From contig NC_045142.1 of assembly GCF_008831285.2 (NCBI RefSeq), positions 25,991,876-26,055,875 on the forward strand: a stretch of 64,000 nucleotides of DNA. The letters run 5' to 3'. The notes beneath the pieces were generated by a model that saw only the letters and a list, made by a program, of their open reading frames with translations, made no database searches and was not told the origin of the DNA. The stretch comes from Nymphaea colorata (taxonomy: Eukaryota; Streptophyta; Magnoliopsida; Nymphaeales; Nymphaeaceae). The translations under genes were made by a program, and so were the position numbers. This document shows positions 3,311 through 61,065 of the stretch, in pieces. Within the stretch, counting starts at the first letter, position 1; the number at the start of each line of letters is the position of its first letter.

Positions 3311-3588
3311 AGTCTGAATTTAAGTAGTATGAAAAAATTGGAGTTGAATGTCCCGATTATTTAAAATTTTTTTGTTGTAATTGAAGCTCAACTGGAGGGT
3401 CACGAGAAACAGAGGGTCTTTACCGACGTTTCTACCTAGGCAATTCAGCTTCAATAACAACAAAAAATTTTCCACGAGAAACAAACGCGTGCTGATAAGA
3501 TACAAATTAATTTAACCAAATTACTAAAGTAAAAAATTGTTCCACCTCGTCTTTCTCTTTCTCTCTCCTCTGTCGGGGAGCCTCTTCA

Positions 3589-4515: not shown

Positions 4516-5500
4516 TGTATGACATAAAATTTTGCATTCATCAATGGCATATAGGTGCATAAATAGTGAAACTCCTGCACCATTTGATTCACAAATCTCA
4601 CTTTTATAACTTGTTTGAATTCAATAGTTCTTGACATAATTCTAAACCAACTTACGGGTTGCGTTTGTGAAGAACGACTTGAAAGTTGTTCCAAAGACTG
4701 ACTACCAGCCATTTTATGTCTAGATGAAGTGCAAGGAATGTTGCAGTAGTGGTTATTGAAAATGCTCAAGCATGGACTTTAGTTGGTCTTCTAAGCGGAC
4801 AGTTATCAGTCTTTTAGACGAGCAAGAAACCTACTGTAACATTGATTGCCCAATTTTGAACTATTGTCAAAGTTTTGGTCGTAACACTAAAGTCTGTCAC
4901 TTTGCTACAAGTCATGAACAGTGTAGCGTGTAACACAATATTGTTAGTTAATGGTTCCACACTTTTTAAGTATCTTTGATAGCAGTAAGATCAATTATAT
5001 TCATCGAATAAAATGCGCGTCCGATTAAAAGATCTTGCAGATAAAATTATGCACCCAAAATGACTTTAGATGACTGGAAAAGCCGGGTGACACCAATGGA
5101 AACAAAGTTTTAAAGAACATTCTAAGAAATTATGTGCACATATGACGTGTTTAACTGTATGTTAAGTTCATCTGAAAAGAATATTCACAAGTGCAAGGAT
5201 GAAAAGAACACCAATGAAGGTTGAAGATGACGCAGGGGAAAGGTCGCCGATTATTACTTCAGTGAAGTAATCCGGTACCGTCCTTCTTCACTGAAGCATG
5301 CGTAGCGGACAATACCTCTTTTTATGTCAACAACTCGTGTCAGTGGAAGACGACGGCCGCCTCTTCTCTTTAGCGGCGGTTTCTTAACGCAACTGAACAT
5401 TAGTTTGATTAATAAACCGGACTCCTCTTTAAGTCATTATGTTAAAATATGTCAGTAAATCACAAACAGTGGAATGCTGGTTGACAAAAGGGAAACGTTG
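4080..5500. repeat. Array spacer block S (copy 2)
   Basis: This repeats the ordered motifs of 1-1800. It includes a (CT)n run at about 4471-4512 that produces low-complexity open frames on both strands. No credible gene is present. The next 500 bases (5501-6010) are AT-rich and show nothing I can identify. Confidence 0.7.
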
Positions 5501-6009
5501 TTGTTATGCTTTAAGGAACCAAGGAAAAAAAATAAAACTTATGCATGCTTTCATTATTCCATCAAATTAAACATGCATGGTTCTGTTTCTTAAAAATTTA
5601 CCTTTTATATACTTTTAAATATATTCCCATTGAGATATAGGAAAATTAATCTAAAATTTTTATGGATAAGGGTTTGAAAATCAAGGGCATTACTGATTAT
5701 ATAGCTTTGGGATCAGTACAAAGATATCAATTACATACATATATAAATTTAAAAATCAATTAAGTTTCTTTAGGCATTTTAGTCTATATGTTTATGTGTG
5801 TCTAAAAAATTATATAAGGACATGTTCGTTTCTGTGGGCAGCTTGTTCATGACATGGTAGTCAGGTGGACCTCCTTTTCACTATTTATTTCATCAAATTA
5901 GCATTATGAGAAATGTGGATCACTACTAGTTTACCTATCTTTGATTTTACCGTTTTGTGCTAAATGAAAAATTGGCGCATCTAAACTATATACTTTAAGT
6001 TTGATGTTA

Positions 6010-6245
6010 AGGGACATAACACAGTGGTCTTACCAACACAGCTGGTTAGACCCGTGATGTGGAAATCTCAAGTCGCCAGTTCTATATTGTCATGAATGTT
6101 AATGTGATGGGCCACAATCAAGTGGGGCGCGACATCAAGCTAAAGATGCTCTTACTTCACCCTAGTTCCCAATGCAACTCTTAACCCTGGATACAAGGAA
6201 AAGAGCGGGGTGCCTTCAGGCACTTTTTGATGGTTATAGTCTTCT
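6010..6245 (+). mobile_element. Possible tRNA-derived SINE remnant
   Basis: The segment begins near cacagtggtctt and has an A-box-like cagctggttaga followed about 35 bases later by a weak B-box-like gccagttctatatt, the spacing expected of a tRNA-type internal promoter. No clear poly-A tail or target-site duplication is visible. An unrelated repeat is an equally reasonable reading. Confidence 0.3.
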
Positions 6246-6412
6246 CCATTGTCACCTGAAAAATGAAAAATTGTAGCATTTCTTAAGTAAACCCTTTAGG
6301 AATGTATATAACATATGTGTATGATGTTGTTTTCTTTTTCCCCTGCCTTATTTTCATAAAGAACATCCAAATGCTCACTACCATAAAAAAATCCACTCGA
6401 GGGAAAGATTTG

Positions 6413-6418
6413 TTTATT
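6413..6418 (-). terminator. Possible poly(A) signal of PME copy A
   Basis: TTTATT on the plus strand reads AATAAA on the minus strand, about 125 bases downstream of the copy A stop codon. The match is to the plain consensus only; there is no other support. Confidence 0.35.
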
Positions 6419-6541
6419 TAAACGTGTGCAAACAATTCCATCTTCAAATCCAACTTGCAAATATCTTTGCCCCTTCTTCTAACTCACACCTACATCAACA
6501 ATCAAACGAATGAAAGACAAGCAAGCAGGATTTCTACTGAT

Positions 6542-7380
6542 CTAAAGCAGCCCAGCTGTGAATGGCACAATCGTTCTAGGCAACCAAGCACCACCCTGCA
6601 CAAAACTAGACACAGTGAAACGTTTGGCATCATTGGCAGCCATCACATGGAATCCGGGCCACTTAACCCTTCCAGCAGTGGCGGAACCAGGGCCTCGGTT
6701 GTCGTACTCCCCATAATACAACGTATCGAGCGCAAAATTTCCGGTCCAAGCAGACCAACCAGCTGGATCAATCAAGCTACCAAGGTTAGACTTCATGAAC
6801 ACTACTCTTGAGTACTGCCTCCATGGCCGGCCAAGAAAAGTTATGACGGATTTCCCGGATAATTCAGGAGCAGCCAGGACATTGCAGTTGATGAAGGAGG
6901 TGCCGGTGTTCTGATTGGGGTCGGACCTCCCTTGAGCCGTGACGGTATTGACATTTCCGTTAGGGAGTCGGGCGTAGAGGTTGCAGTTCTGGAAGACGGC
7001 TGCCGCGTTGCCGAAGATGAAGTCTACGGTGCCGTAGACGTCGCAGTCTCTGTAGAACTGACGGAGGGAAAGGGCGTAGAGAGTATCTTGGTAGCCCTCG
7101 AAGCTGCAGCGGTAGAAAGCGGAGAGGTCGCCACCATTTCGAACAGCAACCGCTTGGCCCTTGGTTCGCCCCGCCGTGTTCCTGACGGTGATACCGATCG
7201 CTACGAAGCCTTGGCCCAGCACAGCTGCAACAATGGTGGCTACATAAGAAATCGCTTTTCTACGTCGTCAAACTGACTATGGCAATATTTCTTAAATGGA
7301 CTGGCTACAAGCTTCACCACGCAAGCTTTGACCTGAGCGTACGCGTAGATGGAGTCAATGATAAATTCTAAGGTCCTAAC

Positions 7381-7419
<39 letters not shown>

Positions 7420-9121
7420 GTTAGTAAATTTAATTTCATACCATACTTCCAACTGTATGTGCAGCTTACTTTAGATTCTTAATATTATCATGCCTTTGAG
7501 CATTTGGTAAAGATGTTTCTTTTGTTCTGGCACGCACTTTAACGGTTGACAAATGTGTGTTTTTATGATATACAGGAAGTTTTCCATAAACCAGATCACA
7601 TTCGTCCAAACTTCATGTCTCGAAGTCTTGGGAATTGTATATAAAAACAATGATTTTTTGGCACGGATAACCAGAATTCTATCATCTGAAAAAAGTTCCT
7701 CGTCGAACTGGATTTCTATGCAACGAGAAATTTTTGGGTGTACATTCACATTTTAAATCCATATAAAACATCAGGATTCTGAGGGTTTCTGACCTGGAAA
7801 CTGATCTATGTGCTTACTTTTATTAAGAAACGGTCTTCTATCTTTTTATGCTTCATTATCGAACATCCATTTGTTTATTCATATTCAAAATATTTCTTAA
7901 GTTAGGAGTAGCATTGTTAATTCAGCAGTACAATTGGCACTTTTTGATGCTCATGTTACTCCCAATGGTGTGGGATTTGAAGGATTCCTTATCAAAGAAT
8001 ATAAAAAAATAAAGGTTATCAGAATCAACAAAATATATTTGAAGAAACTGAGGAAAATTAATTTTGTAACGGGGTATACGGTGAGAACTTCATCGATAAA
8101 CCTATAAAATATGCACCAAGCAGCAGGGACATGAAACCTCACCGAGAGTTGCAGAGTTGAAAGTGGTAGATCCGTCGACGACGTTACGGTTGCCAGTGAT
8201 GATGGTCTTGCCGATTCCGTCACCAACGATCATTATGTACTTCATAGTCGTGGGTATGGTGACGTATTCCCGGTACACTCCTGCCTTCACGTTGATCACA
8301 TAGTAACCCTTGCTCCCGTCGTTGGCCGGAGCAGCAGCAATCGCTTCACTAATGGTGCGGTAATTGCCGCTGCCATCCTGAGCCACCACCACGCTGCCCA
8401 CCGTCTGCAGCGCCATCCTCCTTCCGGCGGCGAAATGAAAGATGTTCCGGTTCACCCAATGAGGAGCGCCATCGCTGCCTACTCTCAGGTCGTCCAGCAA
8501 CTTCCTGCCAGGGTCGACTGCCTTCTTGTGCTTGAAGGGCCAGGAGTTGGTGAGCATGGCGAGCGACACACTGTAGAGCTGAGAGCCATTCATCAACGGA
8601 GCATACAACTTATGACCGCGCTGCAAGAAGGACGCCTGGGTGAGGGCATCCAAGCAAGTGCGCTGGTTGGTGATGATGCCACTCATGAGGGTATGGACCA
8701 GGTCTGCCTGGTCCTCGGCCAGGGTGGTGGAGTCGCAGGAGTCGAGGGTGGAGAGGGAGTTAACCAAGAAATCGGTGGTGAGTTCGGAGAGCAGCAGGCA
8801 ATCCTCGAGAGCCGCTGCCGCTCGTGGGGTGAGGGCAGCCTTATCTCTTATGGTCTCGTTTATGAGGGAAGAGAAGGTGGCTGACTGCTGTAAGGACTTG
8901 TTGATAAGGTACTGGGCATAGCCATAGAAGTTGGAGAGGGACTGACTGGGCAAGAGGGACTGACAGAAGGAAGGATCGGTAGTGAAGTTGCAAGCGTGGT
9001 CTGGACTGACGGGGGCAGGAGCACTGAAGTTTTGAGAGATGGAAGAAGGGAAGAGGAGGGTGAGGGTGAGGAAGATGAGAGGGATGAAACTCATGGTAAA
9101 GGTCGTTGCAGAAGCCACCAT
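6542..9121 (-). CDS. PME: Pectin methylesterase with inhibitor pro-domain, copy A (chimeric)
   Basis: The enzyme removes methyl esters from homogalacturonan in the cell wall. Exon 1 is 8143-9121 and exon 2 is 6542-7224, joined in phase 1 across a 918-bp GT-AG intron, giving 553 aa. Residues 11-30 look like a signal peptide. The inhibitor-like pro-domain spans about 44-190 (Cys 44, 53, 108, 156), followed by RKLL at 206-209, the usual subtilase processing motif. The catalytic motifs are complete: GVYRE, Q350, YQD at 371-373, GTVDFIFG with the nucleophile Asp394, and LGRPW. Exon 2 differs clearly from the six other copies (for example [11 protein letters not shown], a different loop before LGRPW, and C-terminal AGLL), while exon 1 is almost the same as copy E. 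The start is the ATG at 9121; a longer in-frame start at 9199 lies upstream of the TATA box. The leader is unusually short. Confidence 0.88.
7225..8142 (-). other. Enlarged intron of PME copy A
   Basis: The donor GT is at 8142-8141 and the acceptor AG at 7226-7225. At 918 bp it is seven to eight times longer than the introns of copies B-G. It is AT-rich and contains a (TA)n run at 7382-7416. The open frames inside it (7471-7749 minus, 7553-7756 plus) overlap each other and resemble nothing I know. Confidence 0.8.
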
Positions 9122-9159
9122 CTTGGTTGGTGTTTCATTGGATGGCGAGAAGGCAGCTC

Positions 9160-9167
9160 TATTTATA
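9160..9167 (-). promoter_or_regulatory. TATA box of PME copy A
   Basis: TATAAATA on the minus strand, only 39 bases before the ATG. In the other copies this distance is 77-90 bases. About 40 bases of leader present in copies D and G are absent here. Confidence 0.7.
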
Positions 9168-9516
9168 AACGATCTGCATGGCGTGCGGACGTCGGCCACT
9201 CGGCGGGCACCACAATAATTCGGTAGTCAAAATCCCTATTTTGAATAAGCGGCCAGCCCTTCTCTCTAGATTCAAAGTGTGAAGAGCGGGCAAGGCTCCT
9301 CCGTTGTCCTTGCCCTCAGTCCGCGCACGGAACCCGGAAGGGTTGGCTCCTTCTAAAAAACTAAACATAAAAATAAAAAATACATTCAAATTAAAAAATT
9401 TACTTGTTTTATATAAAAATAAACTGTTGAAACTCTATTTAAAGAAGAGAATTAATCTGACTCATTTGATTTTAATGTCTATTAATGTTATAATAAATTA
9501 AATATCACTATTCAGC

Positions 9517-30183: not shown

Positions 30184-31957
30184 TCACGCAGTGAACGGCA
30201 CGCCCGTCTTCGGCAGCCAATTGCTTCCTTGTACGAAATTGGACACGGTGAAGCGACTGGCATCACTTGCGCTCATCAGATGGAAGCCGGCCCACTTCAC
30301 CCTGCCACCGGTGGCTGCGCCCGGGCCGCTATTGCTGTACTCACCGTAGTACAGAGTGCTGAGAGCAAAAGTGCCGGACCAAGGAGCCCAACCAGTAGGG
30401 TCTATCAAGCTGCCAAGGTTAGATTGCATCACCACGGTCCTCGAGTACTGCCTCCATGGCCTGCCCAAATAAGTCTTTGCACCGCCGAGAGCGGATGCAG
30501 CCAAGATGTTACAGTTGATGATGGAGGTGCCCGTGTTCTCGTTGGGGTCGCTTCTCCCCTGAGCAGTGACCGTGTTGAACTGCCCTGAAGACGGCTGCCT
30601 GACGTACATGTTACAGTTTTGGAAGACGACGGCAGCGTCGCCGAAGATGAAATCCACTGTGCCGTAGATGTTGCAGTCTCTGAAGAACTGACGCATGGAG
30701 TAGGTGTAGAGAGTGTCTTGGTACCCTTCGAAGCTGCACTGGTAGAAAGTGGAGAGGTCGGCGCCGCTTCTCATGGCGACTGCCTGGTGCTTGACAGCCC
30801 CCGCCGTGTTCCTAACCGTGATTCCCGTTGCCACGAACCCATCACCAAGTACAGCTGCGATAATGGCAAGATTTAATCATATCAACACACTGCTGCTTAT
30901 CATAAGACTACCAAATTAATCAACGTGCAAAGTACTTTGCAGCTTATACGAAGTTAGTTTGAGGAAAAGAAATCTCACCTAAGGTTGCGGAATTGAAGGT
31001 GGTAGATCCGTCGACGACGTTACGGTTGCCGGTGATGACGGTCTTGCCCATTCCGTCACCAACCATCATTATGTACTTCTTGGTCTTTGGAATGGTGACG
31101 TATTCCTGGTACACTCCTGCCTTCACGTTGATGACGTAGTACCCCTTGCTTCCGTCGTTGGCTGGAGCAGCAGCAACGGCTTCACTGATGGTGCGGTAAT
31201 TGCCGCTGCCATCCTGAGCCACCACCACGCTGCCCACCGTCTGCAGCGCCATCCTCCTTCCGACGGCGAAATGAAAGATGTTCCGGTTCACCCAATGAGG
31301 AGCGCCGTCGCTGCCTACTCTCAGGTCGTCCAGCAACTTCCTGCCAGGGTCGACTGCCTTCTTGTGCTTGAATGCCCAGGAGTTGGTGAGCATGGCGAGC
31401 GACACACTGTAGAGCTGAGAGCCATTCATCAACGGAGCATACAACTTATGACCGCGCTGCAAGAAGGACGCCTGGGTGAGGGCATCCAAGCAAGTGCGCT
31501 GGTTGGTGATGATGCCACTCATGAGGGTATGGACCAGGTCTGCCTGGTCCTCGGCCAGGGTGGTGGAGTCGCAGGAGTCGAGGGTGGAGAGGGAGTTAAC
31601 CAAGAAATCGGTGGTGAGTTCGGAGAGCAGCAGGCAATCCTCGAGAGCCGCTGCCGCTCGTGGGGTGAGGGCAGCCTTATCTCTTATGGTCTCGTTTATG
31701 AGGGAAGAGAAGGTGGCCGACTGCTGTAGGGACTTCTTGATAAGGTACTGGGCGTAGCCATAGAAATTGGAGAGGGACTCACTCGGCAAGAGGAACTGAC
31801 AGAAGGAAGGATCGGTCGTGAAGTTGCAGGCGTGGTCTGGAGTGACGGGGCCAGGAGCACCGAAGCTTTGAGAGATGGAGGAAGGGAAAAGGAGGGTGAG
31901 GGTGAGGAAGATGAGAGGGACGAAAGTCATGGTAATGGTCGTTGCAGAGGGCACCAT
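30184..31957 (-). CDS. PME: Pectin methylesterase with inhibitor pro-domain, copy E
   Basis: Exons are 30979-31957 and 30184-30854 with a 124-bp intron, 549 aa. The N-terminus [10 protein letters not shown] differs from all other copies. Pro-domain, RKLL and catalytic residues are present. Particular changes are Phe instead of Ser in CQFLLP, Val232 for Ala, Val for Ile near GKTVITG, and NWLPKT preceded by QGS. In exon 1, positions 31377-31717 match copy A (8541-8881) without a mismatch that I can see. Exon 2 groups with B (KHQAVA), while QPSSG is shared with C and G. The TATA box lies 81 bases upstream. Confidence 0.95.
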
Positions 31958-58865: not shown

Positions 58866-60929
58866 TTATCTTCTGTCTGTCTTCCCAATTGAACGCTTTC
58901 CAGAGAACAAATGTTTGGGCTTCAAGTTCGGAATAACCCTGTCGGCCTCTCCACGTCGGGCAGCCTTATTTCTCTTCTTGGCAGAGTTCTTCGCAAGAGC
59001 GAGGGCCTTCTGCTTCTGGGCAGAATCCTTGAAGCCTTCCCCAGGGACAATTTCACCAAAAGGAGGTCTTGACCTGGATCTTGATCTATCTCGCAAACGC
59101 AACTTCTTGTTAGGTTGGTCGTCATCCACATCCATGGCATCAGCTCCACCATCGCCACCTGGCGCACCGGACCTCTCCCTCTTTCTTCCTCTCCTAGTCA
59201 CAGACCTGCTCCTTGCCCTGTTAACGGCAGCACTAGGGTCCATACCTAATTTAGATAACTCCCTACCCATTCTCCCAGCAGTGAATTTCCGATCCTTGTC
59301 AAATTTCCTCGGCACAATTGGCTTGCTTTCAGCCGTGCTCTTCTTCATCCGATGCTCCCGAATGAGCAAGCTTTTCTTCTTTCGGATCTCTGCCAACACC
59401 TTCTGTTCTTCCTCTGTCAATTCTGCTCCCTCCATCTCCTCGTCCTCGTCGCCCTCTTCTGCCTGAAGACTAAGGCCCTCCTCCCTCTCCAATTCCTCAA
59501 GCCGTGCCAATATATCAGAATCTACGAAATCGTAGACATTGTGTCCATCTAAGATCTCCGGCATTATATCCTCCTTCCATTCGTCGTCCGCAAGAATGTA
59601 ATGCTTCTTCAGATTGGCAGAATAGACACCTGCTCCGCCATTCTCGTTCTCAATATCCTTCTCAAGCTTCCTTCCCTCGGGCTTCACCTTAGCTGCCTCC
59701 TCCCCATCGCCAGTAGCAGCAGCAGCAGCAGCAGCTTCCCCTGCCCTCGCCTCAAGTATGCCCTGAGGAATGCACGGAGGCCGCTCCTTGTTGTCCCTGG
59801 GCTTCGGTATCGCGACGTGGAACCGGTTCAGGCACTCGTTCAGTTTCTTGGACTTCATTTTTACCTCCACCCTCTGGTTCAGCAGCCTCTCACAGGCGGT
59901 GTTCTTCACGTCTACGACCCCGATGTCCGTCAGCGTGCTCATGGTCAGAAGCACCTTGTCCTCCTCCCCACCTCCTCCCGCAGTGGCAGCCGTCTTGGCT
60001 GCCTCCTCCTTCATCTCCATCACCAGGAGGCGATCCTCCTCCGGGAGAGACTCCAGGGGCTGAAGGTCGATCTTGTTGCAGACGATGATGAGGGCCTTGT
60101 TGGCGAAGAGGGATTTGATGCTGTGGAAAAGGGAGGCTTGCTGCTTGACGGTATACCCACAAGAGCCGGAGACATCGAGGAAGAAGAGGATGGCAGCACG
60201 GAGGTGGGCGAGGGCGGTGATGCTGCACATTTCAATGATATTCCTGTCCTCGAACGGCCGGTCGAGGATGCCGGGGGTGTCGATTACTTGGTAGCGGAGG
60301 TACTTGTAGTCGGTGTGGCCGACGAAGAGGGACTTGGTGGTGAAGGCGTAGGGTTGGACGTCGACGTCGGCGCGAGTGATCTTGTTGATGAAGGATGATT
60401 TTCCGACGTTGGGGAAGCCGCATATGAGGATGGTGCGGGTATTGGGGTCGATGGAGGGGAGACGGGACATGTGCTGGCGGACCTGCTCGAGGTAGGCGAG
60501 GGATGGACCTATGCGCTTGACGATGGTGCACATCCGACCGAGTGCAGCGACCTTCAAGGACTTGCAGCGGTACAGGGAGTCGCCGAACTTGAGCAGGCGG
60601 ACGTAATCCTTGGCGACACGGCCGATGAGGGATCGAGCGGTGTTCACCTGAGCAAGGGCGAGCTTGTAGTGGTCCTTGTTGTAGAGCACGTGAAGGAGGT
60701 CGGAGTAGAAGGGGTGGATGTCGTCGAGGCGGGGGAAGTCGTCGATGATGGTGGAGAGCTTGTCGTGGAAGGTAGTCTGCGTGAACTTTACCTTCCGCAT
60801 GTAGAACTGCCGGAGGCGGGAAATAGCGTAGCCCTTGTGCACCACCGTAGGTGTCTGCCGTTGAGTCCGCGACAGCACAATGTCCACCAGATCCTTTCCC
60901 GACGACACGACCGTCATCTTCTTCATCAT
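58866..60929 (-). CDS. NOG1: Nucleolar GTP-binding protein 1
   Basis: NOG1 is an essential GTPase of the nucleolus that acts in assembly of the 60S ribosomal subunit. The 687-residue product covers the full family length (plant and fungal members are about 650-690). The N-terminal helical domain (1-165) includes the conserved FYMRKVKFTQ and DDIHPFYSDLLHVLY. The GTPase domain has G1 GFPNVGKS at 171-178, a G2 Thr near 197-198, G3 DTPG at 217-220, G4 NKID at 285-288 and STL near 331. The C-terminal part is charged (acidic 500-520, Arg-rich RSRSRS stretches near 630) and ends SIGKTDRR. An Ala run (about 403-408) and EEDK loop are lineage-specific. The coding sequence has no intron. The start could be Met1, Met2 or Met5 with little effect. 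It is divergent from the sucrose synthase gene. Confidence 0.97.
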   Translation of the reverse strand: MMKKMTVVSSGKDLVDIVLSRTQRQTPTVVHKGYAISRLRQFYMRKVKFTQTTFHDKLSTIIDDFPRLDDIHPFYSDLLHVLYNKDHYKLALAQVNTARSLIGRVAKDYVRLLKFGDSLYRCKSLKVAALGRMCTIVKRIGPSLAYLEQVRQHMSRLPSIDPNTRTILICGFPNVGKSSFINKITRADVDVQPYAFTTKSLFVGHTDYKYLRYQVIDTPGILDRPFEDRNIIEMCSITALAHLRAAILFFLDVSGSCGYTVKQQASLFHSIKSLFANKALIIVCNKIDLQPLESLPEEDRLLVMEMKEEAAKTAATAGGGGEEDKVLLTMSTLTDIGVVDVKNTACERLLNQRVEVKMKSKKLNECLNRFHVAIPKPRDNKERPPCIPQGILEARAGEAAAAAAATGDGEEAAKVKPEGRKLEKDIENENGGAGVYSANLKKHYILADDEWKEDIMPEILDGHNVYDFVDSDILARLEELEREEGLSLQAEEGDEDEEMEGAELTEEEQKVLAEIRKKKSLLIREHRMKKSTAESKPIVPRKFDKDRKFTAGRMGRELSKLGMDPSAAVNRARSRSVTRRGRKRERSGAPGGDGGADAMDVDDDQPNKKLRLRDRSRSRSRPPFGEIVPGEGFKDSAQKQKALALAKNSAKKRNKAARRGEADRVIPNLKPKHLFSGKRSIGKTDRR

Positions 60930-61065
60930 TTTTCTCCCCCTTCTTCTCCAACCACCGGCGGACGGCAGACCCTACCGAGAGAGAGGAAGAAAGAGTCTCC
61001 ACGCTGCGTCAGGACGAAGAGGGCTGCGACTGCGTGTGAGGAATTCGCGGCAGCAGCGGTTGCTT

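Follow-up and report, generated by a model that had tools for sequence, protein, structure and literature searches.

Copy A, a gene of a pectin methylesterase (PME) cluster on C5 of a 408-Mb plant assembly, is a recombinant that joins a 5' part of the local array with a 3' part of the lineage of another gene in the cluster, named H. The window, i.e. the whole stretch of DNA analysed here (64,000 bp, C5:25991876-26055875), contains seven type I PME genes (A-G) according to the gene models, all on the minus strand and all with open frames. An assembly-wide PME search yielded 138 matches and placed the cluster at approx. C5:25.948 to 26.130 Mb, past the window in both directions. The loci L001-L008, the C5 cluster outside the window and seven other loci were taken from this search, and three further stretches were added; the cluster was covered except for C5:25955000-25959999 and 124 bp adjoining the right end of the window. 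Ten further C5 genes were modelled, namely q1-q4 on the left and I, J, K, H, r1 and r2 on the right. The models of r1 and r2 are partial, and each has one more intron. Twenty single exon-2 stretches were not entered in the later analyses, and the trees and counts leave out the PME genes in L009, L020 and L021 as well as a partial exon 2 in L014. The latter (L014 5667-6203, C5:26061584-26062204) is of array type, has no full exon 1 and is probably the remnant of a pseudogene; the exon-1 match near it consists only of a 48-bp exon-1 end (C5:26062328-26062375).

Two histories in copy A

Copy A (9121-6542, minus strand) encodes 553 aa compared to 549 aa in B-G. Its exon 1 (8143-9121, 979 bp) is followed by a GT-AG intron of 918 bp (7225-8142) and by exon 2 (6542-7224). 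The gene models thus reproduced the coordinates of the original prediction, including its contrast between the long intron of A and the introns of 112-125 bp in B-G. An array-like exon 1 and a divergent exon 2 with indels and a different C-terminus had likewise been proposed, and both descriptions hold. In exon 1, the synonymous divergence (dS, NG86) of A to B-G ranges from 0.125 (E) to 0.392 (D), with 0.172-0.368 among B-G themselves. In exon 2 it amounts to 1.12-1.42, which is near saturation and should only be read as large, with 0.247-0.533 among B-G. Among B-G, too, divergence is lower in exon 1 than in exon 2 and the baseline ratio is therefore not one, yet the exon-2 excess of A far exceeds this baseline. 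The per-exon values thus came out as forecast for one gene with two histories; a similar divergence of both exons was not found.

The other parental lineage is represented by gene H, which was found by tblastn of the two exons of A against the sampled loci. H lies in the same cluster approx. 94 kb from A (C5:26097513-26094530; exon 1 26097513-26096526, intron of 1310 bp, exon 2 26095215-26094530) and has an open frame of 557 aa. The two genes share 91% of their residues in exon 2 and 66% in exon 1, with nucleotide identities of 91% and 73%, respectively. Their dS rises from 0.28 in exon 2 to 0.84 in exon 1. As exon 1 of nine array copies differs from H by 0.86-1.16, exon 1 of A is nearly as distant from H as that of the array. 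In the whole assembly, the best match listed for exon 2 of A is H (91% nt), followed by three C7 fragments (83%), a C10 gene (76%) and other C5 copies (71-74%). For exon 1, the best match listed is copy E (30184-31957, minus strand) with 95%, while H reaches 73%. The matches listed for the intron are confined to H and the C7 pseudogenes, besides one short self-match. An origin of the long intron by insertion into one of the short introns of the array was considered. It was ruled out because the intron of A has no match at E 1e-3 to the six introns of B-G and aligns in blocks over 820 of its 918 bp to the 1310-bp intron of H (73-78% identity).

Separate trees of both exons were calculated for 17 genes of the C5 cluster and rooted with r1 and r2; the groups compared were named after the tblastn result, not before the data. 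Exon 1 of A falls inside the array clade (support 100/99.8) next to E (95/99), and a topology with A and H together was rejected (dlnL 100.6, p-AU 3e-46). Exon 2 of A pairs with H (100/99.9), and here the topology placing A with the array was rejected (dlnL 130.8, p-AU 4e-100). The phylogeny suggested earlier therefore separates the exons as expected. Diagnostic sites, at which the nine array copies B-G, I, J and K agree and H differs, gave the same picture. In exon 1, 166 of 170 such sites are array-like in A and four are H-like (9006, 8944, 8537 and 8156). In exon 2, 72 of 87 sites are H-like, eight array-like and seven neither. None of the nine array copies switched in a leave-one-out control, where the highest H-like counts were 5/176 in exon 1 (I) and 12/102 in exon 2 (K). 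The segments of A hence back relationships that reject each other, and both parental lineages exist in unrecombined form, the one in the array copies and the other in H and the pseudogene L049 described below.

Two explanations without any recombination in the plant were weighed against these data. A could be an old member of the array whose exon 1 merely evolved far more slowly than its exon 2, and the lower dS of exon 1 within B-G (0.17-0.37 vs 0.25-0.53) is in line with such a tendency. It is nevertheless extremely improbable, as the exon 2, intron and 3' flank of A are specifically nearer to H than to any array copy, either exon rejects the topology of the other, and the share of H-like sites changes from 4/170 to 72/87 between the exons. 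Tandem arrays are also prone to misassembly, and since the gene was judged on the assembly itself, an artificial fusion of two loci has to be considered. This is very improbable, too. A diverges from its parents on both sides, with 5% from E in exon 1, 9% from H in exon 2 and approx. 25% in the intron, and the only place of full identity for each half in the assembly is A itself. The halves are thus not copies of either parental locus.

Position of the join and predicted product

The best interval for the switch is 8156-8165 (minus strand). Position 8165 is the last array-like site, and the diagnostic site that follows it, 8156, is H-like. The base at 8156, a C, also occurs in q1-q4, and strictly the switch may therefore lie anywhere from 8165 to the start of the intron (outer bound 8142). 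The intron begins with GTGAGGTTTCATGTCCCT in A and H alike. As it is of H type from its first bases, the switch falls within the final 22 bp of exon 1, which leaves at least 957 of its 979 bp, counted from the start, as array-type. A breakpoint in the intron is ruled out for the same reason, and the split at the intron that had been assumed at first has to be moved accordingly.

Exon 1 encodes an N-terminal leader, the PMEI-like pro-region, the motifs RKLL (aa 206) and RRMAL (aa 234) and approx. 83 residues that open the catalytic domain; exon 2, of H type, encodes the remainder of this domain. The protein exceeds the Pfam cut-offs for PF04043 (aa 41-189, 74.8 bits) and PF01095 (aa 244-537, 434.5 bits) and shows the domain order of a type I PME (proPME), in which the PMEI-like pro-region precedes the pectinesterase (CE8) domain. 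Since exon 1 reaches aa 326 and the pectinesterase match starts at aa 244, the join lies inside the catalytic domain. The proposed pairing of an array pro-domain with a different catalytic domain is thus not exact, as the start of the catalytic domain (aa 244-326) came along with the pro-region. All six CE8 active-site residues aligned with 1gq8 are identical in A and are encoded by exon 2, i.e. on the H-type side of the join. In carrot PME numbering we take them to be Q113, Q135, D136, D157, R225 and W227. RKLL and RRMAL are presumably processing sites between the pro-region and CE8; H carries RQLL in place of RKLL.

A has no stops, and dN/dS between A and H is approx. 0.15 in exon 2. When the changes in this exon were polarised, 11 synonymous and nine nonsynonymous changes fell on the side of A, ten and seven on the side of H, and 24 were ambiguous. 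Given these similar counts, no burst of change is visible in A. The absence of stops, the GT-AG intron, the kept catalytic residues and the low dN/dS speak for a working gene as far as can be told from sequence. Its product is likely a secreted PME zymogen with control and processing of the array type and a catalytic body of the H type. For the mature domain, a pI of 9.3 is predicted in A, compared to 9.6 in H and 8.9 in E.

Flanks, polarity and the proposed exchange

The ancestral pairing of the exons is documented outside C5. Three dispersed, broken gene copies of the H lineage with exon 1, intron and exon 2 are found on C7 (C7:6952341-6954065, 6968011-6969543 and 7884572-7886108; L049 and L050). 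A comparison of two of them gave 99.5% identity over 2073 bp, which suggests a later duplication on C7. Exon 1 of L049 is 92% identical to that of H, and its diagnostic sites are H-like in 107 of 115 cases, array-like in four and neither in four. Its intron and exon 2 match H with 79% over 515 columns and 88% over 508 columns, respectively. L049 thus pairs an H-type exon 1 with an H-type intron and exon 2, which makes A the derived hybrid.

On its 5' side, A is surrounded by array-type DNA. The proximal promoter (9137-9250, minus strand) with its TATA-like region is 70-88% identical to those of B, C, D, E and G, and farther upstream as far as the end of gene B, matches to array intergenic DNA (D, E, G and q4) follow in roughly colinear blocks. 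An H-type 5' flank was sought upstream of A as far as gene B and none was found. When 500 bp of this flank were aligned, the best identity to the array was 55%, and a part from approx. -130 to -397 had no match; J and K align poorly in this region too. Such patchy matching points to an older or patchy array lineage at the position of A.

The 3' side is more complex. Directly behind the gene, 237 bp (6305-6541, minus strand) are of H type with 80% identity over 241 aligned columns. The following 819 bp (5486-6304) match neither H nor array 3' flanks, and at 5485 the array-type 3' flank resumes (B stop+358, E stop+1660). A dispersed element was ruled out for the 819 bp, as a search that skips very common words found them at their own place in the assembly alone. 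The H-type block hence has a sharp right end (8156-8165), and a left end within or at 5486-6304 with array-type DNA farther left. Because the left end is hidden in the matchless 819 bp, a replacement in register is deduced and not directly seen. The array-type left flank beyond 5485 speaks against a simple crossover, which the 819 bp and later rearrangement could mask. A protein comparison revealed no array exon-2 remnant beside A, and a 20-base DNA match at 5344-5363 was taken as chance. Still farther left, at approx. 3434-3481, an array-type 3' flank (C stop+698 side) meets an array-type 5' flank (D ATG-922 side), which suggests that one PME gene unit was lost between q4 and A as if deleted.

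The original prediction saw A as an older, divergent PME that had received a converted exon 1. Promoter and 5' blocks are array-type, as is the flank farther left than 5485, and the direction was probably the reverse, with an H-type 3' half most likely introduced into an array gene. The opposite polarity supposes an H-type gene, H', at the position of A, in which array DNA took the place of promoter and exon 1 through conversion or through a crossover that fused H' to an array gene on its right. A deletion-type crossover would likewise yield an array 5' side, an H-type 3' side and a single join, the 819 matchless bp could be old flank of H', and the order of matches between q4 and A, with its suggested lost gene unit, implies that deletions probably occurred there. 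We regard this polarity as unlikely, since the left flank from 5485 lies in the register of an array-gene 3' flank, which H' would have to match by chance. H' would also need to have sat in register within an array slot before losing its entire 5' flank, and no H-type 5' flank was found.

A and E share a further feature in exon 1, an identical tract at 8540-8881 (minus strand; 31376-31717 in E). The exact identity noticed before was thereby corroborated, while its length is 342 bp instead of the 341 bp (8541-8881) given. The tract spans 48 of 200 polymorphic sites and is significant by permutation (p 0.0014; 5000 shuffles, corrected over 28 pairs of eight equal-length copies). The remaining 637 bases of exon 1 contain 49 differences between A and E. 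The tract is best read as a separate, later and smaller conversion and not as the event that made the chimera.

Taken together, A is probably an array gene that acquired its 3' half from an H-type donor in place of its own and later underwent an exchange with E. An ectopic exchange, most likely similar to gene conversion, would have swapped the 3' half with an H-type gene as donor, at or after the separation of A and H (dS approx. 0.28). The subsequent exchange with E would then have rendered 342 bp of exon 1 identical. In the resulting gene, an array-type promoter would express the zymogen, the array-type pro-region would hold and process it, and the H-type catalytic body would carry the catalytic residues. 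The divergence of A from H (exon 2 dS 0.28, intron 73-78% and 3' flank 80% identity) is similar to that of A from the array on the 5' side. This fits one founding event followed by the 342-bp exchange and does not by itself set the date of the event.

Recombination in the array and comparison with known systems

The swapping of halves is not confined to A, which appears as its most divergent case, since the 5'-half and 3'-half trees of the nine copies B-K (window 12817-46692, L015, L016) conflict and single-switch scans point in the same direction. B, C, F and I form a group with support of 97/94 in the 5' half, which the 3' half rejects (dlnL 165, p-AU 1e-80). C, G and J group together in the 3' half with support of 99/96, and this grouping is rejected by the 5' half (dlnL 189, p-AU 0.0018); both groups were named after flank similarities had been seen. 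For the seven single-switch scans, parents were chosen by hand after seeing the data. In C, the switch from F to G/J lies at exon 1 831-839 (fit 176/208), and at the same place when J alone is used (342/409). In agreement with these parents, the 5' flank of C is F-like (93% over 494 columns) and its 3' flank J/G-like (92-93% over 435 columns). G switches from D to J/C between intron 115 and exon 2 17 (225/272), and with E as 5' parent the switch moves to ATG-154 to -111 (194/228). A switch from G to B in E, placed at intron 13-24, fits poorly (191/317). B and I switch away from the exon boundary, at exon 2 590-599 (88/117) and at ATG-237 to -234 (164/241), respectively. The best fits of C, G and E lie between exon 1 831 and exon 2 17; that switches concentrate at the exon boundary is no more than a lead. 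Tentatively, the cluster may be regarded as a module-swapping array, in which 5' and 3' halves recombined repeatedly near the boundary of the exons and A is an extreme import. The 5' modules would possibly comprise promoter, pro-region and the start of the catalytic domain, and the 3' modules most of the catalytic domain and the 3' flank.

Within exon 2 of K_26079 (L016, C5:26079196-26078526), seven of the 12 H-like bases at 102 diagnostic sites lie in alignment columns 437-507, and nine of the 12 also occur in at least one q copy. They are probably ancestral states, or else a small H-type tract, which would make K another, partial recombinant with H.

Tandem arrays yield chimeric genes by unequal crossing-over or conversion, with Lepore-type fusions as an example. 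A resembles these in its homologous join, in the kept frame and in 5' and 3' halves derived from different paralogues. It differs from them as no reciprocal product was identified and as its flanks suggest a replacement in register over a simple crossover. PMEs set the de-esterification of pectin and hence the stiffness or softness of plant walls. In the parts of the sources considered here, most PME domains of proPMEs are described with a single intron (PMC3741192), and proPME or type I PME genes, which share the domain order of A, expanded by tandem duplication (PMC3741192, PMC7063471). The term 'gene conversion' is absent from the main texts of both papers, and the passages considered contain no chimeric PME. 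Judged by titles and the beginnings of abstracts, no paper listed in the literature searches concerns a chimeric or converted PME. Ectopic gene conversion was described for the tandem HMA4 copies of Arabidopsis halleri (PMC3749932). According to the part of this report that was considered, the likeness lies in tandem plant paralogues with recurrent exchange of coding sequence and network-like genealogies. The three HMA4 copies were homogenised (concerted evolution), whereas in A one event joined lineages with an exon 2 dS above 1 and the other parent was identified. Tandem arrays are thus already known to produce chimeras and conversion tracts, from the portion of PMC3749932 considered and in general, and A is a well-resolved new case.

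A represents a natural domain swap for which both parental lineages are alive in the cluster, the join is placed within approx. 10-20 bp and the ancestral pairing is independently attested. It offers a clean test of whether promoter and pro-region or the catalytic body determine expression, processing and activity. Whole-gene PME trees of tandem arrays, in turn, can mislead.

Two minor observations concern other frames in the window. Antisense to exon 1, six of the seven copies contain open frames of 160-249 aa (8135-8884 on the plus strand in A, with equivalents in B, D, E, F and G), which are probably a by-product of codon usage. Beside the PME array, a frame of 701 aa (stop to stop) at 58866-60971 on the minus strand matches the nucleolar GTP-binding protein NOG1, with Pfam matches to PF17835, PF06858 and PF08155.
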